From: Natronolimnobius sp. AArcel1
GTDB lineage: Archaea > Halobacteriota > Halobacteria > Halobacteriales > Natrialbaceae
Direction: 5' to 3'
DNA length: 64,000 nucleotides
Assembly (NCBI RefSeq): GCF_011043775.1
Contig: NZ_JAAKXY010000007.1
Span: 62,001-126,000 of the forward strand
Position 1 is the stretch's first letter, and every line of letters starts with the position of its first letter. Below are positions 28,970 to 49,488 of this stretch, in pieces. The position numbers were made by a program, and so were the translations under genes. Under the pieces are notes generated by a model. It worked only from the letters and a program-made list of their open reading frames with translations, was not told the DNA's origin and did no database searches.

Positions 28970-29714
28970 GGCACTGTCTAGTTTAGAACCTCCTCAACCG
29001 GCGTTCGTCCATCGAGCGATTGATGTGGGCACTGGTGGTTGTAATAATGTACAAAATGTTCAATCCATTTGCGAGCGCTCCACCGACTCCCCACCCACGA
29101 GTTATGGAAACGGTCAACACGCATTTTGAATGTGTGAAACCACTTTTCGATGAGGTTTCGGTTGGTGTGGTCAACCCGACCGTTCAGTCCTAATCGGGCA
29201 AGGGCAGTCCGGTAGCCAAACTGATCGACGAGAAACACCGTCTCGGAGAGATCATGTTTCTCGCTGAGTCTATGCAGGAACGCAGCTGCCGGATCGGTGC
29301 CGTGGCGACCGAACAACTGAGCATCGAGAATCAACTTTGTCTCGAGGTATATTGCAGCGTACAACCAAGACCATGCGCCGTTAATTTTGACAGCAGTTTC
29401 ATCAACCGCGACCCGAAATGGCTTCGCCACCGGCGGGTCTGGTACGCTGTTAGCCAGCTGATGTACTCAGTTCCGGATTGCTTTATGAGAGCGTTCAACG
29501 CCCATCAAGCGAAGAATTGCTTGTGTTTCTCGAAGCGAACAACCGGTCGCGTGGAGCCGGACGGCGAACACCCTGACGGGCGTCGCCGTCCGCTCACGCT
29601 CCCAAGCTTCATCAAATTCCGCCGCGTAGGACTCGCTGAGTAGGTCTGAGAGCTTCATGCTAAAGTAACTCTACGGCCTGCTCGCTTCTCAAACTGGGCT
29701 AACTAGACACTGCC
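28970..29714 (-). mobile_element. IS6-family element (ISH14/ISH15-like), inactivated
   Basis: 745-bp insertion sequence bounded by 14-bp terminal inverted repeats GGCACTGTCTAGTT (28970-28983) and AACTAGACACTGCC (29701-29714), 13 of 14 matching. It encloses a single transposase gene on the minus strand. The 8 bp on either side (cattcttc and actctcgc) do not match, so no target duplication remains, which suggests recombination or decay after insertion. Confidence 0.85.
28978..29658 (-). pseudogene. IS6-family transposase with in-frame stop
   Basis: The N-terminal half encodes a short leader and helix-turn-helix (CSLRETQAILRLMGVERSH). The C-terminal half is the DDE domain (RVAVDETAVKING first Asp; second Asp region FLVDQFGYRT; third acidic residue ERNLIEKWF-type, here NRNLIEKWFHTFK). 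The two halves are joined by a TGA at about 29467-29469, where the family normally has Trp in the sequence KAIRN-W-V. Other changes (FLVDQFGYRTAL instead of the usual VDGYGYLTAL) show further drift. Total length (about 226 codons) is that of an intact transposase, so a single nonsense change killed it. Confidence 0.85.
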
Positions 29715-29809: not shown

Positions 29810-30442
29810 TCATGGGCCAACCCTCGAGAACTTCCGGTTCATCCGTTTCCATCGGCGGAAGGCCGTTTTTGCAGATTTGATCCCTGCGAGCACTTCCGTG
29901 AGTGTCGAGGGTTCGGCTTCGGCGTCCGTAATCGCCGTCGGTGCGACCGCGTTCCTCGAGTGAACGGCGTCGTGACATGGTTTACACACCGTAACGAGGT
30001 TCTCAAGGCGGTGAACCCCACCGCGTGACTTTGGAACGATATGGTGGGCGTGCAATTCGACATCACCATACGGGCCGCCTCGGCGACGGCAGTTTTGACA
30101 CTGATGGTCATCACGGGCGTACACTTGCCGTCGACGGCGGTCCCAATCAGGTGGGTAATCCTGTGTCGATTGACGAACAACCCCCGCTGGAGTCTGGTTC
30201 TCTTCAACGGTGACAGGGGCATTGAGGACATTCTCCAGATCGACGTCGTCGGGATCAACTGTCTCACCCTCGGTAGAGAGATCCAACTCGACGACCTCCT
30301 GCAGGCCCTCAACACTCTCGAGGTCGACAGGATCGACACCGACCTGTTTGAGTAACTCACGAACTGTGGTGGAATCGTCGCCGCCAACTGGTTCATCCTC
30401 GGAGAGAGCGTCGGTGGAACCGCTAGACGGTTCGTCAGTCAT
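29810..30442 (-). CDS. HNH endonuclease domain protein
   Basis: 210 residues: an acidic N-terminal region (1-95) of unknown function, then an HNH nuclease domain (about 98-165). The domain is introduced by DWDRRRRQVYARDDHQCQNC, continues with HAHHIVPKSRGGVHRLENLVTVCKPCH, and ends with H. The zinc cysteines (CQNC and CKPC) and the catalytic HH are present. It overlaps the stop of the small zinc gene upstream (ATGA). Probably a DNA nuclease of a mobile region or a repair/restriction-type enzyme. Confidence 0.88.
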   Translation of the reverse strand: MTDEPSSGSTDALSEDEPVGGDDSTTVRELLKQVGVDPVDLESVEGLQEVVELDLSTEGETVDPDDVDLENVLNAPVTVEENQTPAGVVRQSTQDYPPDWDRRRRQVYARDDHQCQNCRRRGGPYGDVELHAHHIVPKSRGGVHRLENLVTVCKPCHDAVHSRNAVAPTAITDAEAEPSTLTEVLAGIKSAKTAFRRWKRMNRKFSRVGP

Positions 30443-31597: not shown

Positions 31598-31870
31598 ATG
31601 CAATCACGATCAGTAACCCTCGAGGAGATAGATGAACTGTTCCTGCAGTGGAACGGTCACATCAATGCGTCCGCGCTCTTTCGCCGAGCGCTCAAAGACG
31701 AAATGCAAATTCGTGACATCAATCCACACGAATTTCGCACCCTGTTTGAACAGGCAGTTGAACAGGGCTATGAATTTGATGACATCCTCGAGCAGACCAG
31801 TCGAATCGATGATTTAGAGCACTTAGTTGCAGAACAAGCAGAGTCAACGCAGCCGTCCACAACGGAATGA
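31598..31870 (+). CDS. hypothetical protein, first gene of the T4SS-like cluster
   Basis: 90 residues, mostly helical, no membrane segment. Contains LFRRALKDEMQIRDINPHEFRTLF and a Glu-rich end. It lies about 30 bp before the next gene and is on the strand of the whole cluster. An AT-rich TATA-like element is found at 31524-31533. Family not recognised. It could be a small regulator or a cytoplasmic accessory factor. Confidence 0.6.
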   Translation: MQSRSVTLEEIDELFLQWNGHINASALFRRALKDEMQIRDINPHEFRTLFEQAVEQGYEFDDILEQTSRIDDLEHLVAEQAESTQPSTTE

Positions 31871-31900
31871 CGCAGATAACTTCCCTCAACGTGACCAAAG

Positions 31901-32323
31901 ATGGCAACACCTTTCGATGAAAATATAGAGTCGGTAGAATCGCAGACGAACGCTGAGCGCGTGCCGTGGCGGCTTGTTCGGCAGCTATCTCTCTCGATAG
32001 TTCTGTTTAGCCTCGTTCTGATCAAACCGGTCGTCGCGCAGGACGGCGTAGTCTGCGAAGCAGAGCAACTTCCGGACATGATTTCGGGCTTCTTCCAGAT
32101 CACAACTGCCCTTGGAATCATCGGTTTGGTTGTTGTCTGGCAAGCGGATTCGCTAGCTGAGATGTTTACCGTGAACCCTGAACAGAAAAAGGGACTCAAG
32201 CAGCACAAGCGAACTGCCCTCAAGTCTGCCATAATTCTGGTCGTCCTCGGGCCGCTGTATACTGTGGCAGGATCGACGATGGGACTCCCGCTCGCTGAAT
32301 GTGTTGACTTGGTGCCGTGGTGA
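31901..32323 (+). CDS. small two-helix membrane protein (pilin/VirB2-like position)
   Basis: 140 residues: a cytoplasmic start, a signal-like hydrophobic helix (LSLSIVLFSLVLIKPVVAQ, about 27-46) with an AxA-like end, a Cys pair (VCEAEQ...AECVD), a second helix (about 60-78) and a third (about 102-120). Its size, signal and two helices, and its position before secreted and polytopic proteins, recall VirB2/TrbC-type pilin subunits or small channel components, but no sequence signature proves it. It overlaps the next start. Confidence 0.55.
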   Translation: MATPFDENIESVESQTNAERVPWRLVRQLSLSIVLFSLVLIKPVVAQDGVVCEAEQLPDMISGFFQITTALGIIGLVVVWQADSLAEMFTVNPEQKKGLKQHKRTALKSAIILVVLGPLYTVAGSTMGLPLAECVDLVPW

Positions 32324-34092
32324 TCCAGACCCCCAACCGAATACGCAATTCCATGGTCCTCCAAATACGCCAGTTGGTACTCTCCATCGGGATCGTCCTC
32401 CTCGCTGGGAGTCTTATTACGGTCCCCAGTACAGCGAGTACTGATTATCCGCCACGACCCGACCCCGGAGAGAGTGGGCTCGACGAAAACGAGACGGCAA
32501 CGCTGTGGTCGAAGTTGCCAAATGAGTGTCGCAGCGACGAAGAGTACTATGAGCAACATGGCGAGAATCGAACCGACATGCAAGAGCTTGGAGAGTGCAC
32601 TGACATCTCGTTTGCTGAACCCCCGGATACAGCGGCAATCTGGACTGCAGCAGACTTTGACACACTCGAGGCCGGTGATCGAAACACATCGGTGTACCCG
32701 GCGAGTGCTGAGACGCAGAACTCGAGTGTGATAGCAGAGGCTCATGCAACATCTTTTGCGGTTCAGCCGTCGACAATCGTTCATCAGGATGAGATGGACA
32801 CACCACAGTATGTCGCACCTGACGGTGAGTTCCGCGGGTTTGTGGATTATCGTGTCCGTGCTCCCGGCAGCGACAATAGTACGTTCTCCAGCGATTGGTC
32901 TGTACTCGAGCACGGAATTGATGAGGTTCGATTGAAACAGGACGGAGAAACAATTTCAACACAGGATGGAACGCATACCCCGGTACTCGAGTACGCTCTC
33001 GACGGGAACGGACCATCAACGTTGACGTTTGAAGCAGATATCGAGGTGTGGCTCGAGCGAGAACTCACTGACGGAAATCAGACTGAAACGGAGGTCGATA
33101 ACCTCATCATCTCGAATGATCTCGAGGTCGAGGTCTATGATCTGTCGGCGTCAATCTACTATGCTGAGTATCCAGATGGAGACACAGGCATTGCGATCTA
33201 CCAGGCACAGCCGTGGCATGGATACATCCTTTCAGAAGATGGGGACGCAGCCGTTCGTGGTAACTGGCGCTATTACACTGCTCGAGACACGGACTGGGAT
33301 CACTTCGTAGAGTCCTCAGCAACAGATAGTGTTGAGCGTCACTCGGAGGCGCTGCCAGTGTTTGTGAGGGCGTATCCGTCCGAGGCTGGTCCGCGTGCAG
33401 ACCCCATCTACGACGGACCAGACATCGTGGATGTGTGGGGCAGCGACCGTCCGTCCCCAAATGAGACGATCCACGAACACGTCGATATCGATGTTCTCGA
33501 GGAACCGTATACGCGCTCGTATGGGCTTGCTGTACGGTACGATGAGTTCGACCGTGATCACCTCGAGGTACAGGGCATCGTCCGTGGGACTACTGCTGAG
33601 CTCGTCGAACCAGAGGGCGGCGCAGAGCGAGAAATTCGTGAGAGTGAGTTATCTGTCGACATCCTCGATCAGGATGAGTCAACGATGACGATCGAGGTGT
33701 CACTTCACGACGCCGAAACTGGGAACCCGATTATGCTCGAGGATCCGTTCGAGAACGATCCGCGGTTTGAACCAATCGGCGGTTCCTCGCGTGATGGCTA
33801 CATCTCGATCGCCGGTGAACGTCTCGAGACAAACATAACCGGACAGGCAACGGCCACCCTCACGCAGCCTGGTATTCACACTGCAGAGTACCACCCTGAT
33901 TCGTGGCGGACGAACGACCCAGCGTACGTTGGTGACACAGCAAGTGTGTCCTGGCATCCGCTGACGACTGCCAGTGGCTGGTTTACACTCTTTGTCGATC
34001 TTGTCTGGCTCTCGATTCCGTTTCTCGTGGCTCTGTATGCGGGTCTGAAACTCGGCTCGTTCCTTCGAATCCCCGACGAACACAACCCATGA
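32317..34092 (+). CDS. large secreted, membrane-anchored protein
   Basis: 591 residues from GTG 32317, or 579 from ATG 32353, which places the Sec signal (LVLSIGIVLLAGSLITVPSTAS) at the very N-terminus. The long body is acidic and beta-rich with no Cys-based motif apart from two cysteines near residue 68-90. A C-terminal transmembrane helix (about 555-577: FTLFVDLVWLSIPFLVALYAGL) and a short basic tail follow. This is a surface protein held by a C-terminal anchor, possibly an adhesin or an external part of the transfer channel. It overlaps both neighbours. Confidence 0.62.
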   Translation: MVIQTPNRIRNSMVLQIRQLVLSIGIVLLAGSLITVPSTASTDYPPRPDPGESGLDENETATLWSKLPNECRSDEEYYEQHGENRTDMQELGECTDISFAEPPDTAAIWTAADFDTLEAGDRNTSVYPASAETQNSSVIAEAHATSFAVQPSTIVHQDEMDTPQYVAPDGEFRGFVDYRVRAPGSDNSTFSSDWSVLEHGIDEVRLKQDGETISTQDGTHTPVLEYALDGNGPSTLTFEADIEVWLERELTDGNQTETEVDNLIISNDLEVEVYDLSASIYYAEYPDGDTGIAIYQAQPWHGYILSEDGDAAVRGNWRYYTARDTDWDHFVESSATDSVERHSEALPVFVRAYPSEAGPRADPIYDGPDIVDVWGSDRPSPNETIHEHVDIDVLEEPYTRSYGLAVRYDEFDRDHLEVQGIVRGTTAELVEPEGGAEREIRESELSVDILDQDESTMTIEVSLHDAETGNPIMLEDPFENDPRFEPIGGSSRDGYISIAGERLETNITGQATATLTQPGIHTAEYHPDSWRTNDPAYVGDTASVSWHPLTTASGWFTLFVDLVWLSIPFLVALYAGLKLGSFLRIPDEHNP

Positions 34093-34922
34093 CACAGAAC
34101 TTTCCAACCCGACGAACCGTCCTCAGTGGAATCGTAGCTGGCGCTGCTGTCGCCGTGAGTGGGTGCTCCAGTAGCTCAGATAGTGGATCTGATAATGGAG
34201 CTGGTGACTTCGACGGTGACGATGTCTTTACCGACATCTTTGTCGAGGACACGGACCTCATCCTCGAGTTCACTGACGAGTCATCAATTGACCAGATAAA
34301 CGTCATCGATCCCAGCGGTGAGTTGTTCGACGAGCTGCTGATTCCATCCGGTATTAGTCGCGATACGGTTGCGATTGGAACCGACTACGATCCCGGTGTG
34401 TACGAGATCATTGCACTCGAGGACGGCGATGAAAAGTCCTCACAGTCCGTGACGATTGAGCCCGATATCCGTATTACCGACCTCCGGCTCGGTCGAAACC
34501 ATCCGGATGAGATGTTCGAGGGGGCAAGTGACCGTGAAATTGAGACAGAGGTTATTTTGACGTTACACAATAGGGGTAATGGCCCAGATGAGATACGGCG
34601 TCTGGTGTTTGATGGCGATGTGCCGCGGCCAACCTCTGATGAGTTCGATGAGAGCGGTATCTACGACACAGATAGTGACATCCGTAGCTATGCAGACGCT
34701 GTTGAACTATCGTCTGATGATGAGATAACGATCTATAGCCGGCAAATGCCTTTCCATTCCGCGGATCCGGATGTTTCGTGTTCGCCGGATACTACGGAAG
34801 GAGAGTTTCAGGTTTACCTCGAGACGATTGTTCAGGACCCATATCCAAATGATGAGTTTGAGGTGACGTATTCTGGTGAAAACCTAGTTGACTGTGATAT
34901 CCACGTGGAGGTAACCTCATGA
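34089..34922 (+). CDS. Tat-exported lipoprotein
   Basis: 277 residues with a twin-arginine signal (TRRTVLSGIVAGAAVAVSGC). The Cys within VSGCSS is a lipobox, followed by a Ser/Asp/Gly linker. The body is beta-rich and acidic, with later cysteines (VSCSPD, DCDIHVEV). Start overlaps the stop of the preceding gene (ATGA), and its own stop overlaps the next start, so it is fully embedded in the operon. It is probably an extracellular component near the channel, analogous in position to a VirB7-type lipoprotein, though no homology is claimed. Confidence 0.7.
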   Translation: MTQNFPTRRTVLSGIVAGAAVAVSGCSSSSDSGSDNGAGDFDGDDVFTDIFVEDTDLILEFTDESSIDQINVIDPSGELFDELLIPSGISRDTVAIGTDYDPGVYEIIALEDGDEKSSQSVTIEPDIRITDLRLGRNHPDEMFEGASDREIETEVILTLHNRGNGPDEIRRLVFDGDVPRPTSDEFDESGIYDTDSDIRSYADAVELSSDDEITIYSRQMPFHSADPDVSCSPDTTEGEFQVYLETIVQDPYPNDEFEVTYSGENLVDCDIHVEVTS

Positions 34923-36064
34923 GTTCACTCACTGAATTTGGTCGTCGATGGTTCGAGGATATAATTGAAACCATCATCGAATGGTTTCAGGATGGGTTGG
35001 TGGAAGGATACGATTCAATCACAGAGGAATTGTTCGGGACTCCAGTTCCAGAAACGAGTGGCAGTTTCGTCTTTAGTGCCCCGACAAATGATCCATGGAT
35101 TGACTTGCATGACTCTCTCGTTGCTGGTGAAATCATGCTCCTTTCCTTACTTCTTCTTGTCATTTTTGTTCAGGGGCGGCACACTATTCGAATTTTCAAT
35201 TTCAGCAGCAATTATGAAGCACGCAAAGCTCGAAGAACTGCGTGGACTGGTGCCATTTTAATTGTAACTTGGTATTGGGTAGCCGTCTTGATCCTGTATC
35301 TAGTGAATGGTTTTGCAATCGCTCTTGTACCTGGTATAGATGCCCTCATACGTGGCATGGTCGATTTTTTGACGGTATCGATATCGAACCCTGCGCTTTC
35401 GTTGTTTATGGCAGCGATTGGCGGCATTGCCATGTGGATTCTGCAGGCACTCTTTTTCATTCGAGAAATATTGCTCTATGTCTACCTTTATGCGATGCCA
35501 ATCGGGATTGCAGTTGCATTTGGTCACCTCCCAATCGTCTCACAGATTGCAAAACAGATTTGTATCAAATTTGTACCGCTGGCCATCATGCCTCTCCCAC
35601 TTGCGATTTTGTTCAGAGGCTATGATCTTCTTTTCGGGGCAGGAACGAACTCTGCTATTGCTCCGGAGAGCGCATTTCTGAGCTATCTTGTCGGCGCATC
35701 GCTTCCGATCTTCGCGCTTGTTCTCATCTGGAAACTCTTCGCGTATGCGAGTCCACTGACGGCGAAAGTCATCGGTGGTGCAACGAAAGGAGCGGTCACA
35801 GTTGGAGCGACACTCGGGGCTGCGAAAGTCGCTGGCCCACTCGCTGCCACAACGGCTGCTCGGTGGGGGCCGAAAGCTGCGGCATGGCAAGTCGCCGGTC
35901 AGCAGATCAGTGGCCGCCGGCGTGGTTCTAACGCTAACTCGAGCGGTGCTCCATCGAATGCTGCGGCTGGAGGCACAACGCACGACAACGTCGTCGCGGA
36001 CGCCTACGGGCAACGAGGCGTTCCACAGTATCGACGCACCGAAAACGATCCTGGATACTACTGA
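34919..36064 (+). CDS. polytopic membrane protein (VirB6/TrbL-like)
   Basis: 381 residues: extracellular-facing amphipathic N-terminus, then about 7 hydrophobic segments between residues 60 and 285, with Gly/Ala-rich helices near 280-320 and a hydrophilic Arg/Ser/Asn/Gly tail ending YRRTENDPGYY. A Gly/Ala-rich multi-helix protein just before a VirB4-like ATPase is the usual arrangement of VirB6/TrbL channel proteins. Third positions are more A/T-rich in the first half than in neighbouring genes. Confidence 0.62.
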   Translation: MSSLTEFGRRWFEDIIETIIEWFQDGLVEGYDSITEELFGTPVPETSGSFVFSAPTNDPWIDLHDSLVAGEIMLLSLLLLVIFVQGRHTIRIFNFSSNYEARKARRTAWTGAILIVTWYWVAVLILYLVNGFAIALVPGIDALIRGMVDFLTVSISNPALSLFMAAIGGIAMWILQALFFIREILLYVYLYAMPIGIAVAFGHLPIVSQIAKQICIKFVPLAIMPLPLAILFRGYDLLFGAGTNSAIAPESAFLSYLVGASLPIFALVLIWKLFAYASPLTAKVIGGATKGAVTVGATLGAAKVAGPLAATTAARWGPKAAAWQVAGQQISGRRRGSNANSSGAPSNAAAGGTTHDNVVADAYGQRGVPQYRRTENDPGYY

Positions 36065-36066
36065 CC

Positions 36067-37182
36067 ATGGCTGATCAAGACGCTGCTTCCCGACGAATTA
36101 TGGATGAACTGGGCGAAGAGAACCGTGTCCCGATCGTCAACGTTGACGAGGGGGATGTTTACGTACTCCTTGGGTTCCCGATCGGCGGCTTACTCATCGG
36201 TGGCTTCAGCGGTGTGGATGCGCTTGTCTTTCCGCTGGTGCTCGTTGGCCTCGCGCTCGGCGTCGCCGCCGTCTATGCAAGCCCGTCGCACCTCTCGGCT
36301 GCAACGTGGCTCACCGATGTCTATCGTCACTACTGCAAACGTCCTCGAGTGACCTACAGCGTTTCAGCGAAAGATGAACACACCCACGCCCACTCGAATA
36401 CCGCCCGGAACGAAGGCGGGTTGATCAACTACACGCCCTTTGCACCGGATGAGCGAACGCAAGATCTGACTAATATCGAGCGAGCGTGGCCTGGTGCTAG
36501 AACCGTCCAGCGAACGGATGGCACGATGGAGGCATTTCTCCAGGTCGATCCGGGGAACATGGATTTCGCAATGAGCGGAGACTGGGCGCACATCCAAGAC
36601 GTCGCCAGCGAGTTTGCGAACAAGGAACTCGATTACAACCTGAAGTTCTACACGACGACGCGAACCTTTCCAGTAGAGGAACTCATCACACAGATCGACG
36701 AGCGACTCGAGGACGACGATGTCTCTGATAACCCGGTCTTCGAGGAGTTACTCGCGGAGTATCGCGAACAGCGCCCTCGAGACCTCGACGAAGCCCAACA
36801 AATTCGCTACTATATTGGCGTCCAGGTCAATCCGCTCGAGGTCTACAGCCGCTACCGTGATGAACAATCGCCTGCTGAGAAACTCACGTCGCTTCCGGTG
36901 ATTGGATTTCTGTTCAATCCGTTTGTCACCCGCCGTGAGGACTTAGCGGATATCGAAGTCCGATCACGGATGTTCGATAAACTTGATCGACGCTGTCGAG
37001 CCGTTCAGACTGAGTTGGTCCAGAAAGCGCCAGGGTGGTCGGCACGCCGATTGAGCACAGTCGAACTGTTCGTGCTTGCAATGGACTTCTGGAACGGCGA
37101 AGAGCACACCTACGACGACGCTGCTGATGCGGTTCGCGAACAGTCGGCTGTTCGTCGCCAGCGGAGGGAAAGCGATGAGTAG
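36067..37182 (+). CDS. PrgI-like helices joined to a VirB4 N-domain-like protein
   Basis: 371 residues. Two adjacent transmembrane helices (about residues 29-50 and 53-72: VYVLLGFPIGGLLIGGF and ALVFPLVLVGLALGVAAVY) recall the PrgI/VirB3 small membrane partner. The soluble part (about 120-360) with FLQVDPGNMDFAMSGDW, ELDYNLKFYTTTRTFP and RYYIGVQVNPLEVY resembles the N-terminal, non-ATPase domain of VirB4 proteins. The true VirB4-like ATPase follows with an overlapping start. It is therefore either a fusion of the PrgI/VirB3 and VirB4-N functions or a separate scaffold. Confidence 0.58.
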   Translation: MADQDAASRRIMDELGEENRVPIVNVDEGDVYVLLGFPIGGLLIGGFSGVDALVFPLVLVGLALGVAAVYASPSHLSAATWLTDVYRHYCKRPRVTYSVSAKDEHTHAHSNTARNEGGLINYTPFAPDERTQDLTNIERAWPGARTVQRTDGTMEAFLQVDPGNMDFAMSGDWAHIQDVASEFANKELDYNLKFYTTTRTFPVEELITQIDERLEDDDVSDNPVFEELLAEYREQRPRDLDEAQQIRYYIGVQVNPLEVYSRYRDEQSPAEKLTSLPVIGFLFNPFVTRREDLADIEVRSRMFDKLDRRCRAVQTELVQKAPGWSARRLSTVELFVLAMDFWNGEEHTYDDAADAVREQSAVRRQRRESDE

Positions 37183-39346
37183 CACTATCTTTGCCGTCTC
37201 CGCGCTCGGGCAGTATCTGGCTGGACTCGAGACGCCTCACATCATCGCCGGCATCGTCGTATTCGCTGTCTTTCTTGGCGTTGGCGTGAAGATTTATCAG
37301 GCTCGGACACGCGAGGAAACGGAAGTCAACCTTTCGGAGTTTCTCGACGAAGACACGCTCGAGGAAGGCGCTGTTGAAGAGACGATTCTCGAGGAGATTC
37401 CGGAACGTCACAAGAGCGCTGTTGCACCGTCGGCAATCACGTGGGAAACACGCGCTGCACAGGTTGGTGAACAGTGGACGTCGACGCTCTACATTGCAGA
37501 TTACCCGGACTACCCGAAAGATGGCTATCTGAACGAACTGTTCGAACTGACCGATATCGAGTTCGATTTGACCGTCCACATCACGCCGAAAAATCAGCAG
37601 AAAGCTCGCGACGAACTCCAGCGAGTCGCAGACGACCTGCAGGTCGACGCTGATCTCGAGCAAAGCGTTCGTGGGGCCTATCTCCAGGAGCGAGCAAACG
37701 AGGCAGTGTCGACGTACAAGGCAGTCGAGAACGGCAGCCGTGTGTTCGCTCAGGGAATGTTCATCACTGTCCGTGCAGAGCGGAAAGACGAACTTCGGGA
37801 GGCAGTCCGGACGATTCGGAGCCGGCTTCGCGAACAGCCCGCTGGCCTCTCACCGAAAACAGCGATCTGCAAGCAGGATCTTGCCCTTCAGGCCGCTGCA
37901 CCAATCGGTTCGAACCCGTTCGGTCGCGAAGCAATCTCGCTCGGTGGGGCTGTCGGTGCACTCCTTGCCTCGCCACACAATGCGACGATTCTCGAGGATG
38001 ACGGCGTCGAGTTTGGGACTCACTGGAAAAACGAGAGCCCCGTCGTGATCGATCCATTCGCCCGAGAAAATGGCTATGCGATGTTCACGATTGGAGATCC
38101 CGGTTCTGGAAAATCGTTCGGTGCAAAACAGAACTTCATCCGCTCGATTGAGCAAAGCGAGGATCGAATCGGGATCATCCTCGAGCCGTTGAATAACTGG
38201 GCCGGCGTCGCCGAAGCACTCGGTGGCACACGGATTACAGTCGGCGGTGATATGGGGTTGAACCCGCTCGAGATCAAGCCAACGCCCGAACGGATCCAGC
38301 GAGCAATGGGTGAAGACGCGAGTCCATATCGCGAAAAGCTCGACAGCGTGATGAGCTTCCTCTCGAACTACTTTGCGCTCCGTGGGATCCAACTCGGCGA
38401 CAAGCGCACAACGCTCGAGACAGCCATCGAAGAGGCATATGCTACGAAGGGCATTACGGACGATATTGCGACCCACGACAACGAGAGTCCGACGATGCGA
38501 GACGTTCTCGATATCCTCGAGGATATGGTCGACAAGCCGGGCGGCTTCGTCGTCCGAACAGACGAGGAAACCCAGAAGATCGAGTCGGATGCGACATGGC
38601 TGATCGACCAGTTGCGATCCTTTGCAGCGGATGGTCGCTACGAGAACCTCGGGCGACCGACCGAGTTCGATCTTCGCGACGAGAAGGTGTTCTACCTGGA
38701 TTTGGCCCAGCAGGAAGGCAGCCTCGGTGGAAGTACGAGTCTCATCATGCAGTTGTTGATCACGCTGGTCTATGAGCGAGCAAAGGAGACGGACAAGGAG
38801 GTCGTGTTCGTCATCGACGAAGCCCGCTATCTGATGCAAGATGCAGCGAGTCTCGAGTATCTCGAGATCGTGTTCCGTCACCACCGCCACCATGATCTTT
38901 CGATCCGGATGATCACCCAGACCGTCGACGAGTTCTTCCAGCATGCCGAGTCCGAGGCCATCTTGGATCAATGTGCGATCAAACAGTTCCACCATCTCGA
39001 TGGGATGGACCAACACTGGGCGAACGAGTTTGGATTGAATTCTGCGCAGATGCGCTTCGTCCAAGACGCCGTTCCAGGGAGTGAGGATATCGGCTACTCG
39101 GAAGCCCTTGTCGGCGTCGACGGCGACTGGCGCGGTATCGAGGTTCATGCACTCGAGAAAGAGAAGGCTGTGATCGATTTCGACGCCAAAGAACAGTCTC
39201 GAGGCGATCTTCCCGGCGTTCCTGATCGAAGTGATACACGCTCTGTAGACGACTCCCGAAACGAGGAAATCGATTCTGAAGAACCGCAGTCGGAGGGTCA
39301 CGAGGTGCTAACGTGGGCTGACGGGGGTGATCACACGGATGAGTGA
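37175..39346 (+). CDS. VirB4-like type IV secretion ATPase
   Basis: 723 residues from the ATG at 37175, which overlaps the preceding stop. A single N-terminal membrane helix (HIIAGIVVFAVFLGVGVKIY, about 20-40) is followed by a VirB4 N-domain. The P-loop is GDPGSGKSFGAK (residues about 307-318), a conserved region TLETAIEEAY near 412, and the Walker B is VVFVIDEARYLM (about 543-554). A glutamine-rich sensor loop (MITQTVDEFFQ) follows. This is the energising ATPase of a transfer apparatus, close to AAA ATPases of the HerA-FtsK class. The stop is overlapped by the next gene. Confidence 0.83.
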   Translation: MSSTIFAVSALGQYLAGLETPHIIAGIVVFAVFLGVGVKIYQARTREETEVNLSEFLDEDTLEEGAVEETILEEIPERHKSAVAPSAITWETRAAQVGEQWTSTLYIADYPDYPKDGYLNELFELTDIEFDLTVHITPKNQQKARDELQRVADDLQVDADLEQSVRGAYLQERANEAVSTYKAVENGSRVFAQGMFITVRAERKDELREAVRTIRSRLREQPAGLSPKTAICKQDLALQAAAPIGSNPFGREAISLGGAVGALLASPHNATILEDDGVEFGTHWKNESPVVIDPFARENGYAMFTIGDPGSGKSFGAKQNFIRSIEQSEDRIGIILEPLNNWAGVAEALGGTRITVGGDMGLNPLEIKPTPERIQRAMGEDASPYREKLDSVMSFLSNYFALRGIQLGDKRTTLETAIEEAYATKGITDDIATHDNESPTMRDVLDILEDMVDKPGGFVVRTDEETQKIESDATWLIDQLRSFAADGRYENLGRPTEFDLRDEKVFYLDLAQQEGSLGGSTSLIMQLLITLVYERAKETDKEVVFVIDEARYLMQDAASLEYLEIVFRHHRHHDLSIRMITQTVDEFFQHAESEAILDQCAIKQFHHLDGMDQHWANEFGLNSAQMRFVQDAVPGSEDIGYSEALVGVDGDWRGIEVHALEKEKAVIDFDAKEQSRGDLPGVPDRSDTRSVDDSRNEEIDSEEPQSEGHEVLTWADGGDHTDE

Positions 39347-42300
39347 GTACATCCGTGTCACGCCGACCTCTGAGAAACTACGTACTGCTGAGGTCCCGGC
39401 CGCACTCGAGAGTCTGCACAAACTCACGAATCCTGCTGCTCGAAACGTGTCTGACCGTCTCAATCCATTTGCTGATACGGCCCCGCCGACGTTCGAATTT
39501 CTTGCTATCAGCGAAGGTGAAGACGACCCAGTCGAGTTCTACTACGGCATTGATCACTCGGCACACCTCGAGACACTCGAGAAGCAACTCAGAACGATCT
39601 ATCCGCAGACGTTCGACATCACCCGGAGTGAGTTGGATCTCGAGCAGAAACTCGTCCAGCCAGTCGACTACACCAGAGACGAGTATCGCGAACGCCTCGA
39701 GGATGGGAGACTGCTGGATCCGCCACTGGCTGATGAACGGGATGAGTTCAGAGAGGATGAGCAAACCGACGGTGGTCGTTCAATCCTCGAGGATGAGGTC
39801 GATGACACCGCTGCTACCATCGGTTCGTCTCTTGAGGTAGAAGCGGCATCTTCAGACTCAGCGACGGTTTCCGCTCGGCCACCACTCGAGGACGTCGACC
39901 CAATTGGCGTTCAGTGGTACGGGCGGGCACAGCGCAAGCGCGACTGGATGACGACGATCAAATCATTTGCTGGCCGAGACCCAGATCCAACCGAGTACAA
40001 TACCGACCAACCGCCACTCGCGACGCTGATCGATCATCTCACCGAACTCGAGTACCCGATTGCGTTCCAGGTGGTCTGGCAGCGCAAAGACGAGTGGACA
40101 GCTGATGCAGAGTTACGCGTTGAGGATCTTCGAGATGGACGAGATACGTTCGGCCAGCGCTATATCGGCCCCCTGTTCGAGACGAGTGATCTTGATGCAG
40201 ACGAACGTGAGCCGACCCTTGGAAATGAAGCCCAGAATCGAATCGACCGGATCCAGGCTAAGCATCCAAAACGGACTTTCTCCGTAAACGCTCGAGCAGT
40301 CGCGATTCCGCCCACTGCTGATGGGGATTTAGATGAGAAGGTGGAGACGCAATTCGATCAACTCGCACAATCACTGAACGCCTTAGATGGGCCGTTCTAC
40401 GAACTCGAAGGACAGCGACTTCGTTCGAAAGGTGTACTAACCAGAACGAAACGAAAACGCGCTCGAGCAGTTCTCAACAATATACTTCACTCGGACCTCA
40501 CGACGGGACGGGGGAAACGGCGTCCCGATCTCGTATTAAACGCCGATGAACTCGCGAATCTTACTGTCGTCCCCTCCTCACAGGACCTCACTGTCGAAGG
40601 GAGCCGTGGAACACGCTCCGAGCAACGCTCTCGAAATCCATTGCCTCGCCCACATCCAGACCTCATGGACGAGTTCCGAGAGGGCATGGCAATCGGCTAC
40701 GCCATCGATGAGAACGGTGAGACAGAACAACAGCCGGTTCGGATCCCACCGTCGTTGCTTCCAACGCACTACGTTCGAGCGGCTACAACAGGCGGTGGTA
40801 AGTCGAAGTCACTGACCAACGACAAACTCTCCCTGTACGACCAGACTGACGGCCCGATTATCCTGATCGACGCCAAAGGCGATGGACTCTGTGAGGATTA
40901 TATGCGAGCCCACGCCCATCGGTTCGGCGTTGACGATCTCGAGGAGAACGTCCTTCACTTCCCGATTCCGGAGGTCCTTCCTGGATTTGCGTTCTTCAAT
41001 ATCGAGCGCCAGCTCGAGAACGGGGTTCGGCGTGTCGATGCAGTCCAGAACAAGGCAGACCACTACGAGGAGATTCTGAAGATGGTGATGGGTGAAGACC
41101 GCTACGAGCGAGCAGTCGTTGCTCCTACGCTCATCAAATACCTCATCAAGGCACTCTACGACGAGGAGCATGGCCGCGAGAACGGCCGCTACCGCGAGAG
41201 TGTCGATTACTTCGCTCACGATCAACTCGAGTACGTTGTCGACCAACTCTGGCAAGCTGGTCCACCCAATCCCGTGGAGGATGCAGCACCACGCTCGAGC
41301 AATGCACAGGTCCAGCGACGACTCGACCGCCAACTACAGCTCGACCCAAACACGTTCGCGACTGTGATGGGCGGAGTCAGTAACCGTCTCGATTACATCT
41401 CGCAGGACGAGCATCTGAGACGTGTCTTCAATAATACCGAGTCGCAGTTCGACTTCCGCGATGTCCTCGATGATCGCAACGTGATCCTATTCGATCTCGG
41501 CGGTCTTCGAGATGAATCTGCGAAGGCGATGACCGGCGTCATACTGACGGAGCTCTACAACGCGTTGCGAGAGCGTGGTGACGATATTCAACAGAAACCG
41601 GACGACTACGTGGTCAACCTGATCATCGACGAGGCCTCGAGTCTGGCCGTCTCTGACGTAATGAACACGCTGTTGGAGAAGGGGCGGAGTTTCCGGCTCT
41701 CTGTTGGCCTCTCGTTGCAGTTCCCCGAGCAACTCGATGTTAAGGGCGGTCGCGAGGTCTACCTGAACGTTCTCAACGACGTCGGCAGTCCGATCATCGG
41801 CAAGATCGCCGTCGACAACGAGATCGCGAAGGTAATGGCCCACGAGGATATGGATCCCGTCGAGTTCGCCAATCGGATTCGGTCACTCCCTCGGGGTGAG
41901 TGGATCGTTCGACTTCCGAGTCCAACATTCGGTGAGACTGGACCAGAGCCGTTCAGCCTTGCGCCGCTTCCGATTCCGTCTGGCCACCCCGAGAGCGCTA
42001 CTCCACTGACTGCCAGTGAGGAACAGGCGTTTCAGAGCGCACTCGAGCGAATTCACGAACGAGCAGATTCCGAGTACGGTGTGGTGACAGACTCACCGCC
42101 AACCGGTCAAACACCGTCTACTGTTCGCGAGACGTTCGAGTTAGGGTCCGACGACCTCGATGTTGCGCTCGCAAACGCTGTCCGAACGGTTCAACACCAA
42201 CAGGGTGTTCGCGAAGCGAACGGATGGGTTCCTGTCCAGTTGGTGGATCAGACGCTTCGAACACGATACGAGGCAGCCGATGCATCACCACCATCAATCG

Positions 42301-43646
42301 AAGAGCTTGGAGAAATCCGAGACCGATCCCGATTGCTCGAGGTCACACTTGATCAGGATACTGGTGAGATTGTCGTCCGGTTGACCGACGACGGTGAAGC
42401 GGTGACTGAGCCGGATACGGGTGATGTGCGGTCCTCGGGAAGCGAGTTGCACGATGAACTGTTGATCGCTACCAAGAGAGAACTCTCACAGGAGGGATTC
42501 GATGTGACGATATTTACGCAGGATGGGAGCGAAAAACCGGATGGACGAGCGGTTCACCCCGACTGTGAGGCTATTTTCGATATCGAGGTTGAGTCTACGA
42601 CAGTCGATAAACCGGTGAAAGTCCTTCGGAACTTCCAACGGGCTCGAGAGGCCGAACACGTTCCATTGTTCGTCGTTACCACCACTGAGGACGGTGACAA
42701 TGAACTACAGACTGCAGCCCGTCTCGAGGATATCCTCGCCTCGCCAGTCAACGAACTCGAATCCGGGGAGGTGCGATTATACACGACTGATTCTCACATC
42801 ACGTTCGATGGTGGTGCAAACGTTCGAGATGGTGTGACTGCAGTTCGACCGGCGACTGGTGACTCGAGGCGGTCTGTATGGACGCAAGACAAGAGTGAGT
42901 ATCGGTTGAGCGATGGACTAGGCACTGAATTTGTGACCGTCTCATCGCTTGACTCGCTTTCACGAAGCGATGTGCCTGCCGTGTATAGCTATGATCGAGC
43001 CACCGATGAGTACGTTGTCTACGAGCCGACCAAACGCCACCGCTACGACAGCAAATCCGCGTTCGAACAAGAGTGGGTGCCGATCCGAGAGCCGTTCGTT
43101 CCTGAGACAGTCACATCGACACCTGACGATCCTCTCGAGTCGTCTGTGATTGCTGTCCTCGAGAAAGACAGTAACTCCATGCAGATCTACCGTGATGGAC
43201 AGCGACGTCCTCTCGATTCTCTCGTCGATGTGATGAACTCGCAACCCGCTGAATCTTGTCCCGGCCCTGCTGAAGGTAACAAGTCTGAGGCATCTGTCCT
43301 GCCTGTTCTTTCAGAAAGTGACCGGGAGCAATCCACTGCTTCTTCTCCGACGGAGCACCCCGAACAGAATCAATCAAATGATTCACAAGATGTCGATTTC
43401 GGGACCTTCGTCGAGGACTGCCTTCTTCAACAGGAAGGTGCCGAGATTGCAAAGGCTGACCTCTACACCGTCTACGAAGCCTGGACAGACACACACGACC
43501 ATGAGGCGTATGCAAGGTCCTGGTTTGGTCGGAAACTGAGCGAGCATGTATCGTATGATGAATACCGTCCGACACGGGACGGTGAGCGTGTACGTCACTA
43601 TACTGGTATTACGCTCTCATCCTACGGGCGCAACTTCTTCGACTAA
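39339..43646 (+). CDS. VirD4/TraG-like coupling ATPase with extra C-terminal domains
   Basis: 1435 residues from the ATG at 39339. The N-terminal half (1-450) has no clear family; the central HerA/FtsK-type ATPase (about 465-880) has the P-loop ATTGGGKSKSLTN (about 482-494) and Walker B NLIIDEASSL (about 760-769), plus LSLQFPEQL after it. Two further domains follow. About 1030-1120 looks like a PD-(D/E)xK-type fold (KPDGRAVHPDCEAIFDIEVE). The last 80 residues (EDCLLQQEGAEIAKADLYTV to the end) resemble the winged-helix C-domain of phage/plasmid P4-type primases. It probably recruits DNA to the VirB4-type channel. Confidence 0.72.
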   Translation: MSEYIRVTPTSEKLRTAEVPAALESLHKLTNPAARNVSDRLNPFADTAPPTFEFLAISEGEDDPVEFYYGIDHSAHLETLEKQLRTIYPQTFDITRSELDLEQKLVQPVDYTRDEYRERLEDGRLLDPPLADERDEFREDEQTDGGRSILEDEVDDTAATIGSSLEVEAASSDSATVSARPPLEDVDPIGVQWYGRAQRKRDWMTTIKSFAGRDPDPTEYNTDQPPLATLIDHLTELEYPIAFQVVWQRKDEWTADAELRVEDLRDGRDTFGQRYIGPLFETSDLDADEREPTLGNEAQNRIDRIQAKHPKRTFSVNARAVAIPPTADGDLDEKVETQFDQLAQSLNALDGPFYELEGQRLRSKGVLTRTKRKRARAVLNNILHSDLTTGRGKRRPDLVLNADELANLTVVPSSQDLTVEGSRGTRSEQRSRNPLPRPHPDLMDEFREGMAIGYAIDENGETEQQPVRIPPSLLPTHYVRAATTGGGKSKSLTNDKLSLYDQTDGPIILIDAKGDGLCEDYMRAHAHRFGVDDLEENVLHFPIPEVLPGFAFFNIERQLENGVRRVDAVQNKADHYEEILKMVMGEDRYERAVVAPTLIKYLIKALYDEEHGRENGRYRESVDYFAHDQLEYVVDQLWQAGPPNPVEDAAPRSSNAQVQRRLDRQLQLDPNTFATVMGGVSNRLDYISQDEHLRRVFNNTESQFDFRDVLDDRNVILFDLGGLRDESAKAMTGVILTELYNALRERGDDIQQKPDDYVVNLIIDEASSLAVSDVMNTLLEKGRSFRLSVGLSLQFPEQLDVKGGREVYLNVLNDVGSPIIGKIAVDNEIAKVMAHEDMDPVEFANRIRSLPRGEWIVRLPSPTFGETGPEPFSLAPLPIPSGHPESATPLTASEEQAFQSALERIHERADSEYGVVTDSPPTGQTPSTVRETFELGSDDLDVALANAVRTVQHQQGVREANGWVPVQLVDQTLRTRYEAADASPPSIEELGEIRDRSRLLEVTLDQDTGEIVVRLTDDGEAVTEPDTGDVRSSGSELHDELLIATKRELSQEGFDVTIFTQDGSEKPDGRAVHPDCEAIFDIEVESTTVDKPVKVLRNFQRAREAEHVPLFVVTTTEDGDNELQTAARLEDILASPVNELESGEVRLYTTDSHITFDGGANVRDGVTAVRPATGDSRRSVWTQDKSEYRLSDGLGTEFVTVSSLDSLSRSDVPAVYSYDRATDEYVVYEPTKRHRYDSKSAFEQEWVPIREPFVPETVTSTPDDPLESSVIAVLEKDSNSMQIYRDGQRRPLDSLVDVMNSQPAESCPGPAEGNKSEASVLPVLSESDREQSTASSPTEHPEQNQSNDSQDVDFGTFVEDCLLQQEGAEIAKADLYTVYEAWTDTHDHEAYARSWFGRKLSEHVSYDEYRPTRDGERVRHYTGITLSSYGRNFFD

Positions 43647-43698
43647 TCTATGTCAGCAAACACCATGAGCCCACGACACTCCCTCCGTGATCAGTGTC

Positions 43699-43781
43699 GT
43701 CCAGGCACTCTGGGGGCCGGGAAAATGCCTGGACAGGTATGTCCAGGGAAAAACCGCAATACTGCGTCGAATGTCCAGGCA
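43699..43781. repeat. GTCCAGG(C/G)A repeat cluster
   Basis: Short motif GTCCAGGCA at 43699-43707 and 43773-43781, its inverse TGCCTGGAC at 43726-43734, and the variant GTCCAGGGA at 43741-43749: four copies in about 80 bp in a 275-bp non-coding gap just before a replication-like gene. This is the appearance of an iteron or regulatory cluster. A palindromic GGGGGTTACCCC follows at about 43812. Confidence 0.5.
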
Positions 43782-43922
43782 AATTCGTGGGCAAAACCGA
43801 CTAGTATAGAAGGGGGTTACCCCGTCGGTCAGGGCAGTCGATATCGCGTAAGAAAGTTCGATGCCCCGAGGGGTTTCTCGACTCCGTCAAAGTCGGAGAG
43901 TCAATGCAGGTGGTGACTAAAT

Positions 43923-45200
43923 ATGAATAATCAGAATGAAGATAAATTCGACATCGAAGCGATCCCAGACGAACTAGCCGAACGCCCACAGTGGATCTGT
44001 TGGAGAGCCGAAGACAGAGATGGAAAGACGACAAAGGTACCAGTGGATCCAACAACTGGAAGCTTTGCGTCGACGACTGACGACCGAACGTGGACGACGC
44101 TGGACCAGGCACTCGAGTACGTGGTGACTGGTGCTGATGGAATCGGCTTCGTCTTCACCGCGACGGATCCGTTGGTCGGTGTGGACCTAGACGACTGCCG
44201 CGATCCCGAGACAGGCAAGCCACTCGAGCCAGCGCCGTCGATCATCGATCAACTGGATTCATTCACCGAGGTCTCTCCGTCGGGAACCGGATATCACGTT
44301 CTCCTCGAGGGTGACCTTCCTGATGGGCGGAACCGACATGGGTCGCTCGAGATGTACGATCACGCTCGCTTTTTTACGGTGACTGCAGACCACGTTAGTG
44401 GAACGCCGACGTCGGTCAACGAGCGACAGGAGGCACTCGAGGCGGTTCACGAGGAGTGTATCGCCTCCGAGGTGAGTGGTGCGGCTGACACTGTCGAAGC
44501 CAACCCACCGGCCACTGAGAGCCGTGAACAGTCATTGGGCCTTGAGGATGAGGAACTCCTCGAGAAAGCACGGAACGCGTCGAACGGGGAGAAGTTCGAC
44601 CGGTTGTGGCGTGGCTCAACGGCTGGGTACGACAGCCAGTCAGAAGCGGATATGGCGCTGTGCTGTTTGCTGGCGTTCTGGACGGGTGGTGACGCTGCTC
44701 GAGTCGATCAACTCTTTCGGCAGTCGGGACTGCTTCGAGACAAGTGGGACGAGGTCCATTACAGCGACGGTTCGACGTACGGTGAGAAGACAGTCGAACG
44801 AGCAATCGCGAGTACGGAGGATGTCTACACTCCCTCGAGTGGAAACGAGACAAGCACTGGAGGAGCGCAGACGACGGCTGCACAGGGTACCAGCCAGGAT
44901 GGACCCACATCGACGACTGAGCGGACTGTGAGTGGAACTGACGGTGCACGGGCAGCCTATCTGGCCGAGAAGAATCAACTCTTGAATGAGCGGGTGTCTG
45001 CTCTCGAGGCGACGCTCGAACAGAAAGACGAGCGTATCGAGGAACTCGAGGACGAGAATACAGCGCTTCGTGAGTCACTTGAGACGTGTACAGAACAACT
45101 CGAGGACCCTGATCAACTGTCGGCGCTCGAGGACGCTGGGACTGATAATCCAGTCTCGGTCTGGAACCGAACAAAGCGCTTCTTTGAGAGAAGCAAATAG
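43923..45200 (+). CDS. primase-like / NrS-1 polymerase-type protein
   Basis: 425 residues. The first 150 form a prim-pol-like N-terminal domain seen in plasmid and phage replication proteins (ERPQWICWRAEDRDGKTTKV, GIGFVFTATDPLVGVDLDDC, SGTGYHVLLEG). Residues about 215-290 fit the HBD-type helical module of NrS-1-like polymerases (SQSEADMALCCLLAFWTGGD). A flexible Thr/Ser region and a C-terminal coiled coil (about 340-395) follow. The conserved Asp-Leu-Asp-Asp is consistent with metal binding. It is preceded by the repeat cluster at 43699-43781, so it could be the replication gene of the element. Confidence 0.68.
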   Translation: MNNQNEDKFDIEAIPDELAERPQWICWRAEDRDGKTTKVPVDPTTGSFASTTDDRTWTTLDQALEYVVTGADGIGFVFTATDPLVGVDLDDCRDPETGKPLEPAPSIIDQLDSFTEVSPSGTGYHVLLEGDLPDGRNRHGSLEMYDHARFFTVTADHVSGTPTSVNERQEALEAVHEECIASEVSGAADTVEANPPATESREQSLGLEDEELLEKARNASNGEKFDRLWRGSTAGYDSQSEADMALCCLLAFWTGGDAARVDQLFRQSGLLRDKWDEVHYSDGSTYGEKTVERAIASTEDVYTPSSGNETSTGGAQTTAAQGTSQDGPTSTTERTVSGTDGARAAYLAEKNQLLNERVSALEATLEQKDERIEELEDENTALRESLETCTEQLEDPDQLSALEDAGTDNPVSVWNRTKRFFERSK

Positions 45201-47588: not shown

Positions 47589-47894
47589 ATGGGAACAACG
47601 CGAGTCAACTTTCGGCTTCCAGAGGAACTACTCGAGAAGGCCGATGTTGCGGCTGAAATAACACATACAAACCGTACAGAAGTCATCAAGAAGGCACTAC
47701 AGCAGTATTTCGAAGAGGTTGAAGATGACGAGCGGTTTAATGAAGCACTCATTGAACTCTATCTTGATGAGAAAATCGGCTTCGAAACCCTGAAAGAGTT
47801 CGTCGGTCGGCAAGATGCTGAAGCCGTTCAGGCTTCGAAAGCTGTTCTTGAGCAGGGAGATGACCTAGCAGACGAACTTGCAGATCTCGAGTGA
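47589..47894 (+). CDS. VapB-like ribbon-helix-helix antitoxin
   Basis: 101 residues starting with a ribbon-helix-helix domain (TTRVNFRLPEELLEKADVAA, residues 3-22, then helix VIKKALQQYFEEVEDD). The C-terminal half is a helical tail that would bind the toxin. Stop and next start overlap (GTGA), so it is coupled to the PIN protein. RHH antitoxins of this kind repress their own promoter as a toxin-antitoxin complex. Confidence 0.83.
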   Translation: MGTTRVNFRLPEELLEKADVAAEITHTNRTEVIKKALQQYFEEVEDDERFNEALIELYLDEKIGFETLKEFVGRQDAEAVQASKAVLEQGDDLADELADLE

Positions 47895-48397
47895 CAGGGC
47901 CAGGAATGATCATTATCGATACAAGCGCGTTCATCTCTTTAGCCACAGCAGACTCGGTAGAGATGGTTCTCGAGGAATACGATGTCCAGACAACCGAGAC
48001 GATACTCGAGGAATTAGTGGAAACAGCAGAGTATGACGATGTTCACGGTCGCGCAGCAACGGCTGTTCTCGAATTGAAGCATGAGTATACTATTCATGCC
48101 ACCTCCGAGCCAGCACTCGAGACGTCTCGAGTCGATAGTGGTGAGGCGAGTTGCGTCACCCTCTGTCGAGAACTTTCAGCGGATTTTTTGATTATTGATG
48201 ATCTCAGAGCGTTACCTGAACTCCAGAACCTGACCGATGCACAGGTGGCGATTTCACCGATTATGTTGAACGCATTGGTTAAACGGAACCGGCTCACAGA
48301 AAGAGAGGCAAAGAGGAGGGTCGAAACACTGGCTGAAAATCGTGACTGGCTAGAATCGCCGATTTACCGGCGAGCACAAGATTTGTTTTCTGCGTAG
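47891..48397 (+). CDS. VapC-like PIN-domain toxin
   Basis: 168 residues from the GTG overlapping the antitoxin stop (an internal ATG at 47906 gives the alternative start MIIIDTSAF). PIN acidic residues: Asp in MIIIDTSAFISL, Glu in ETILEELVE near 42, Asp/Glu in DSGEASCVTLCRELSADFLIIDD near 83-105. VapC proteins cleave tRNA or rRNA. The C-terminal half (ISPIMLNALVKRNRLTEREA) is longer than in minimal VapC and resembles the archaeal PIN proteins of about 160 residues. Confidence 0.8.
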   Translation: MTGPGMIIIDTSAFISLATADSVEMVLEEYDVQTTETILEELVETAEYDDVHGRAATAVLELKHEYTIHATSEPALETSRVDSGEASCVTLCRELSADFLIIDDLRALPELQNLTDAQVAISPIMLNALVKRNRLTEREAKRRVETLAENRDWLESPIYRRAQDLFSA

Positions 48398-49408: not shown

Positions 49409-49488
49409 AGCTCTTTCTCGAGACCAATATATTCACCGCAGCAGTACTGATGAACGAGGATGTCAGTCACTTCGCGAATCCGGATTGA
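49405..49488 (+). pseudogene. VapC PIN-domain fragment
   Basis: 27 codons reading MKLFLETNIFTAAVLMNEDV and then stopping after a few unrelated residues. The opening MKLFLxTNIFxAA is the first PIN strand, with the catalytic position occupied by Glu rather than Asp. The rest of the gene is missing, and the fragment runs into the 3' end of the convergent metallo-hydrolase gene (overlap 49463-49488), which marks a rearrangement junction. Confidence 0.6.

Follow-up and report, generated by a model that had tools for sequence, protein, structure and literature searches.

A haloarchaeal type IV secretion module with no linked relaxase, whose coupling ATPase may recognise and cut its own origin of transfer

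In bacteria, a separate enzyme, the relaxase, recognises and cuts the transfer site of a conjugative plasmid. According to PMC9905601 and PMC12857230, archaeal conjugative plasmids have no known homologue of this enzyme, and one of the two adds that the mechanism may differ owing to this absence. A gene cluster at 31598-45200 of a 64,000-nucleotide stretch of DNA from Natronolimnobius sp. AArcel1 (contig NZ_JAAKXY010000007.1, positions 62,001 to 126,000; hereafter the window) resembles a type IV secretion system (T4SS) and raises the question of which protein would process the DNA. We propose, with a probability of about 0.5, that the cluster is the transfer apparatus of a relaxase-less conjugative haloarchaeal plasmid, whose VirD4-like coupling ATPase recognises and cuts its own origin. 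The domains of this ATPase, the fold and residue conservation of its C-terminal part, the repeats and the hairpin behind its gene, and the co-switching of its terminal winged helix with these repeats were computed from the window and from related loci.

The cluster consists of nine plus-strand genes, g1 to g8 in succession, followed by 276 non-coding bp and then by the primase gene g10. A first-pass annotation had listed eight plus-strand genes, and their presence, order and, as far as g8, close spacing (overlaps or 2-30 bp) were borne out, but a ninth gene, g1, and the 276-bp gap had been overlooked. The intergenic gaps from g1 to g8 are 30, -7, -4, -4, 2, -8 and -20 bp. The non-coding region (43647-43922), our candidate transfer origin, lies between virD4 (g8, 39327-43646) and g10 (43923-45200), and the equivalent region of the relatives is mostly 150-415 bp long. 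Relatives were compared in 80 loci retrieved with the VirD4 C-terminus, and the denominators given here are loci with enough flanking DNA. An 88-amino acid open reading frame (ORF) at 43650-43916 was judged spurious, its reading frame being closed in the relative L036. (T)GTCCAGGSA occurs four times in the region, once in inverted orientation: (C)GTCCAGGCA at 43698-43707, the inverted copy TGTCCAGGCA on the minus strand at 43726-43735, TGTCCAGGGA at 43740-43749 and TGTCCAGGCA again at 43772-43781, the other three being on the plus strand. The exact sequence TGTCCAGGSA was found at three sites of the 141-kb contig, all of them inside 43647-43922. The relatives share this layout with different repeats (TTCCACC, TTACGGC, TTACGAC, TCCACGC and TTCAGGG types), and 63 of 71 distinct regions hold a 9-mer in four or more copies, compared with 1 of 90 shuffled ones.

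Downstream of the repeats lies a conserved plus-strand hairpin (43797-43828), CCGAC-TAGTATAGAA-GGGGGTTACCCC-GTCGG with a bulged TAGTATAG, whose consensus CCRAC-TAGTATAG-GGGG..CCCC-GTYGG was found in 77 of 86 regions. Its exact core occurs once per locus where present; the hairpin gave a single match genome-wide in the window's own genome, and, in a search of eight genomes, one genome-wide match each in four and none in the other four, while the reversed hairpin used as a control had no match in the genomes searched. Among 41 distinct hairpin fragments, left from 56 after 15 near-duplicates had been removed by hand, pairing is seen in 87.5% of the stem cells, compared with at most 50% when the stems are slid. 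Doubly changed stem cells numbered 24 against 8 +/- 2 in shuffles, counts that are inflated by sequence relatedness and come from a test that scored a structure we had named rather than one predicted de novo; at pair 11/39, for instance, A-T was found in 24 and G-C in 12. Because RNAalifold predicted just 2 pairs on the 51-column hairpin alignment, the hairpin rests on the covariation test and on the fold of 43647-43922 as single-stranded DNA (ssDNA), which is more stable than that of shuffles (z -4.0) and contains the hairpin. A search of Rfam returned no match within 43500-44050. We infer from the repeats and the hairpin that this region would serve as the origin of transfer.

If the repeats are an address, a protein should read it, and the C-terminal end of the VirD4-like protein changes together with them. 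When repeat classes were assigned by hand, the terminal winged helices of L063 and L064 were 36% identical at a VirD4 backbone (amino acids 1-1300) identity of 92%, and those of L064 and L099, which by the same hand assignment have the same repeat type, were 52% identical at a backbone identity of 55%. The test was then repeated with an automatic rule, from which 7 of the 71 regions, with fewer than four copies, were excluded. For pairs with backbones at least 85% identical, the median identity of the terminal winged helix was 94.4% when the repeats were shared (n=102) and 37.8% when they were not (n=62), and in the pairs whose repeats differ amino acids 925-1300 remain 88.7% identical. In the first 25 of these 62 switch pairs, VirB4 and VirB6 were about 97% identical and the primase 82%. 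At backbone identities of 50-70% the values pointed in the same direction (42.0% with shared repeats versus 32.8% without). Because its identity tracks the repeat type, the terminal winged helix is likely the repeat reader, as judged from sequence comparison. Just two discordant pairs were observed (L106/L120 and L106/L113), and this near-absence is expected under a functional match of reader and repeats.

The protein that carries this winged helix, g8, is a putative VirD4/HerA-type coupling ATPase of 1439 amino acids, to whose C-terminus predicted DNA-processing domains are fused. The P-loop and Walker motifs on which the first-pass annotation had based a VirD4-like ATPase were confirmed (GGGKS at 489-493, LIIDEA at 765-770); that annotation had missed both the domains at the C-terminus and the non-coding element. 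Family matches were weak (SXT_TraD 1e-5, CedB 0.0094, TraG-D_C 0.04, HerA 0.055, and TrwB also weak), and by sequence the motor appears to lie between VirD4/TrwB and HerA. No FtsK/SpoIIIE Pfam match was found at E <= 1, and FtsK in the PDB reached just 0.6. An AlphaFold2 model of the C-terminus (68 sequences, pLDDT 82) has a winged helix at either end; between the two lie, in this order, a helix-strand-strand-strand-helix-strand core, an insert rich in beta structure and a disordered linker. The first winged helix (amino acids ~925-1020; 42099-42386) is supported by the model and by structural matches. The terminal one (~1358-1432; 43398-43622) is of the RFX/D5 type and matched the RFX1 DNA-binding domain with Z 11.9 and Pox_D5, the end of D5 primases, with 1.9e-4.

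The middle domain (amino acids ~1040-1305; 42444-43241) was modelled separately because Foldseek on the whole C-terminus returned mainly winged helices. Modelled alone (pLDDT 85.6), its core has a predicted alpha-beta-beta-beta-alpha-beta topology with a PD-(D/E)XK-like arrangement. VIA-align aligned it to PaqCI (Z 8.4) and to Archaeoglobus Hjc (Z 8.3, 2.6 A, 101 of 125 residues), and also listed NucS, FokI, VRR_NUC, DdmD and the nickase Nt.BspD6I; from their names we take nearly all of the rows to be PD-(D/E)XK proteins. Since a Z near 8 may, as the tool cautions, reflect a common arrangement, the fold assignment rests on the uniformity of this list. In the model, the first helix carries H1042 and D1043, strand 2 begins with D1072 and strand 3 ends with E1087-x-E1089. 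These five residues are invariant, and K1098 nearly so, across 68 aligned rows (alignments A2 and A3, made of 67 of the 80 loci plus the window sequence). Pfam on the nuclease stretch alone gave a chance match only. The fold and the conserved residues suggest that the middle domain may act as a nuclease, with which the coupling ATPase would probably cut its own origin.

VirD4-like proteins were found with two endings, a long one accompanied by a primase-polymerase (PrimPol) and a short one accompanied by another primase of about 294 amino acids and a "primase-associated protein", which look like PriS and PriL, as we assume. In L003-L005 and L049-L051 the short-type VirD4 is followed by this different primase pair, and the type of primase and the ending of VirD4 co-vary. 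In the window the primase g10 (425 amino acids) is of the NrS-1 type, with matches to 7rr3/6a9w (1e-41) and PF22763 (4e-31) that span the catalytic and helix-bundle domains.

Is there, nevertheless, a relaxase? The first-pass annotation had seen none in the module, and the profile searches agree: in 21 genomes TrwC and Rep_trans, with a working positive control, gave no match at all, and PF03432 gave short relaxase-like matches in two haloarchaeal genomes (L141 and L142), both on other contigs, so that none of the three families was found on the contig of the module. The Mob_Pre and Replic_Relax searches were uninformative, their controls being silent. A Replic_Relax-type relaxase, considered because of its motifs, found no support in that search or in Pfam. 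Rolling-circle initiators of the Rep-Arvir family (PF25227) were found in 15 of the 21 genomes. The gene shares a contig with a module only in G122, where it is broken (C5:85139-85691, on the contig of the module's closest relative), in G279, where it is intact and about 51 kb from that genome's second VirD4-like gene, and in G289, where it is chromosomal and 1.4 Mb away from the module. Rep-Arvir was rejected as a general hidden relaxase because it is mostly unlinked to the module. The annotation had concluded that either another protein processes the DNA or the system exports something else. This choice can now be narrowed, and DNA is likely the cargo because the VirD4-like protein combines a predicted nuclease fold with a likely DNA-reading domain that is matched to the adjoining repeats.

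The remaining genes of the module support its assignment as T4SS-like, which the VirB4 and VirB6 families and the conserved gene order uphold. VirB4 appears to be encoded by two genes. The g6 product (36067-37182) comprises a VirB3-like hairpin and the N-terminal part of VirB4 and aligns to residues 7-334 of the fused VirB4 proteins of L044 and L055 (blastp 3e-21 and 5e-23), and g7 (37175-39346) encodes the VirB4-type ATPase. Because the two are fused in L044 and L055, g6 and g7 are two halves of one VirB4, in accordance with the PrgI/VirB4-N-like protein proposed earlier; a single ORF holds both parts in 16 of the 80 loci. The g7 product matched NCBIfam CD1110 (4e-42), CagE_TrbE_VirB (5e-6) and P-loop_TraG (3e-6), and among solved structures its sole match at E <= 0.1 was a bacterial VirB4-like protein (4ag5, 7e-9). 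An AAA_10 search of the own genome was empty, yet VirB4 gave a weak AAA_10 match by hmmscan. Its start is most likely the ATG at 37175 rather than the TTG at 37076 of a longer ORF. The VirB6/TrbL channel protein is g5 (34919-36064), with six membrane segments and a PF19590 TrbL_3 match of 2e-222. Upstream of it, g4 (34089-34922) encodes a lipoprotein with, by sequence, a twin-arginine-like start, present in 52 of 70 loci, and g3 (32317-34092) a large exported protein with a C-terminal membrane anchor (segments 20-38 and 555-573), present in 54 of the 69 loci that have sufficient upstream DNA. The g2 product (31901-32323), kept in relatives, has a signal-peptide-like start and two membrane segments separated by a basic loop (hydropathy segments 23-41, 61-79 and 106-124); family searches with it gave no match, and from its topology it is a candidate VirB2/CedA1-like pilin. 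The first gene, g1 (31598-31870), encodes a small soluble protein of 90 amino acids with homologues at the equivalent position in several relatives.

The module is common on haloarchaeal plasmids and far beyond chance: 188 of 293 genomes from the order contain a relative of the VirD4-like protein, and relatives of VirB4 occur in 360 plasmid records, chiefly haloarchaeal and some bacterial. Near-full-length matches to the VirD4 C-terminus were confined to the order and the others were partial (392 genomes of the phylum sampled), and neither VirB4 nor the VirD4 end had relatives among viral contigs. The 141,499-base contig of the window is probably a plasmid, because it carries Orc1-like and ParA-like genes as recognised by sequence. 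A chromosomal copy of the module in G173 has its nearest listed integrase about 110 kb away.

Taken together, these results are compatible with the following sequence of events, provided that the plasmid is transferred at all, as we infer. VirB4 (g6 and g7), VirB6 (g5) and the exported g2-g4 products would form the channel, and the VirD4-like ATPase would be the coupling protein standing in for a relaxosome. Its terminal RFX-type winged helix would dock on the four repeats that follow virD4, the PD-(D/E)XK-type domain would cut at the neighbouring hairpin or close to it, and the motor would push the DNA, presumably as a single strand, to the VirB4/VirB6 channel. The adjacent primase would then begin either the complement of the incoming strand in the recipient or, in the donor, a replacement for the strand that has left. 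A stronger version, which we advance more tentatively, is that the coupling ATPase is itself the relaxosome: recognition of the origin, cutting and pumping would all be done by one polypeptide, and the repeats (the address) and the terminal winged helix (the reader) would be swapped as a cassette.

Several observations weigh against this proposal. The winged helix and the repeats adjoin in the DNA, and recombination could move both, functional coupling being unneeded. The hairpin is absent from 9 of the 86 regions. Foldseek on the middle domain returned nothing at E <= 0.001, the nearest PD-(D/E)XK protein being Hjc at 0.096, and the putative active site has E-x-E instead of the (D/E)-x-K of classic members, K1098 lying further on. 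Short-type VirD4 loci lack a non-coding region of this kind, a search of them for a conserved non-coding element gave nothing convincing, and kinship between the nuclease-like ends of long and short VirD4 was unsupported (hhalign E 0.37). Finally, the VirD4-site-primase unit occurs without an upstream VirB4 in 8 of 71 loci. Such units (L097, L109, L115, L116 and others) are possibly mobilizable elements.

This last observation also favours the main rival explanation, unlikely in our opinion, in which the repeats, the hairpin, the VirD4-like ATPase and the PrimPol constitute a replication module, with an origin, an initiator/helicase and a primase, to which the T4SS genes are merely adjacent. 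Repeats, a winged-helix initiator and a primase are indeed the classic anatomy of plasmid replication, and the terminal winged helix resembles the ends of phage primase-helicases (phrog_1829) as it does Pox_D5. On the other hand, the contig has its separate Orc1-like and ParA genes, and the complete plasmid pAArc1-01 is likewise annotated with orc1/cdc6 and ParA; the ATPase is VirD4/HerA-like with a nuclease fold, and its gene lies within the T4SS operon in most loci, with VirB4 ahead of it in 63 of 71 and VirB6 in 61 of 70.

No better supported, in our estimate, is a pump in which the ATPase reads the repeats and moves uncut double-stranded DNA (dsDNA), the nuclease domain being inactive or acting elsewhere. 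The precedent is Streptomyces TraB, which, according to PMC12857230 and PMC3218068, binds 8-bp clt repeats, moves dsDNA and works without a canonical T4SS. The atypical E-x-E centre would suit such a pump, but the D/E/E residues are invariant, and in each of the 79 loci that could be scored virD4 and its site are directly followed by the primase. The neighbouring genes bear on the same point. An OB-fold DNA-binding protein gene (56571-57446 in the window) lies downstream on the strand of the module in 35 of 64 loci and on the opposite strand in none, and in all 8 records common to the 40 VirB4 and 15 ArdC matches listed an ArdC-like gene lies 19-66 kb downstream, in the same orientation as VirB4. 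The OB-fold gene and the ArdC-like ssDNA-binding proteins of such plasmids are hints for single-stranded entry, and the ArdC-like proteins speak against a dsDNA pump.

We regard as very improbable that the region, which does lie upstream of the primase gene, is an operator through which the VirD4-like protein or another factor controls that gene with no role as an origin: a stretch of 250-400 bp that holds 4-6 spaced repeats as well as a covarying hairpin would be large for an operator, and a coupling ATPase acting as a repressor would be odd. Least credible of all is a HerA/FtsK-type pump of an unrelated system, for instance one packaging DNA into plasmid vesicles, because, although the ATPase matches HerA about equally to VirD4 and PMC10818511 describes a like resemblance of pR1SE ORF25 to VirB4/TrwB/HerA, VirB4 and VirB6 are clear in the same operon. 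The first-pass annotation had named ATPases matching only HerA/FtsK, or an unconserved gene order, as grounds for abandoning a T4SS, and what was found instead is VirB4 matches and an order that recurs on haloarchaeal plasmids.

If the proposed transfer reading is true, it would be, as far as the literature found goes, the first time that a DNA-processing enzyme and a transfer origin are proposed in archaeal conjugation; a paper describing the site or the fused domains was not found in a search that mostly covered work outside subscription journals. Related plasmids would then carry differing private transfer addresses, and plasmid typing based on relaxases would overlook them: four plasmids examined, among them pAArc1-01 and pNRC200, are typed as "non-mobilizable". 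For a module borne by many culturable haloarchaea, the locus thus supplies candidates for the enzyme and for the origin (276 bp), together with a rule open to test: the terminal winged helix should match the repeats.

Other genes of the window were also noted. Upstream of the cluster, 1-26700 contains catabolic genes (a tricarboxylate-transporter-like set, two PrpF-like genes, an aconitase and an FAD-oxidase/Fe-S fusion), and an SMC/Rad50-like coiled-coil ATPase (26712-28706, PF13476) adjoins an HNH protein (29810-30442). Transposase remnants were found at 28978-29430 and 51829-52428 (IS240/rve-like and DDE_Tnp_1). Downstream there are two toxin-antitoxin-like pairs, assigned by eye, one ribbon-helix-helix/PIN-like (47589-48397; homologues downstream in 18 of 64 loci) and one HTH/PIN-like (54772-55871; 15-24 of 64), and a metallo-beta-lactamase-fold protein (49463-51112) that is 83% identical and of equal length on pAArc1-01, with a downstream homologue in 5 of 64 loci.

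Compared with bacterial conjugative T4SSs, the module likewise has VirB4, VirB6, a VirB3/VirB4-N protein and a VirD4/HerA-superfamily ATPase in one operon, but it differs in having no linked relaxase, in the DNA-binding and nuclease-fold domains attached to its coupling ATPase, and in the adjoining primase. The Thermococcus plasmid pT33-3 and the Sulfolobus conjugative plasmids are archaeal too, with VirB4 and VirD4-like proteins and no relaxase recognised; in the descriptions by which they were compared, no such fused nuclease or repeat reader is reported. The Ced/Ted systems share VirB4-, VirB6- and VirB2-like parts in archaea, according to their descriptions, and CedB is among the weak matches of g8, whereas they are chromosomal import systems. 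We know of no origin or fused nuclease in Ced/Ted. The NrS-1 phage primase-polymerase shares the primase core of g10, which differs in lacking a helicase domain and in its linkage to a coupling ATPase, and the Rep-Arvir initiators, in spite of their co-occurrence, have another fold and are unlinked to the module in most genomes. TraB reads clt via a C-terminal winged helix. It is, like the system proposed here, a relaxase-less DNA pump with repeats near its own gene, the reading of the repeats being predicted here from co-switching; the differences are a VirD4/HerA-type instead of an FtsK-type ATPase, a full T4SS, a nuclease fold and a primase. TraB/clt is the closest working analogue of the module, and transport of uncut dsDNA remains compatible with it.

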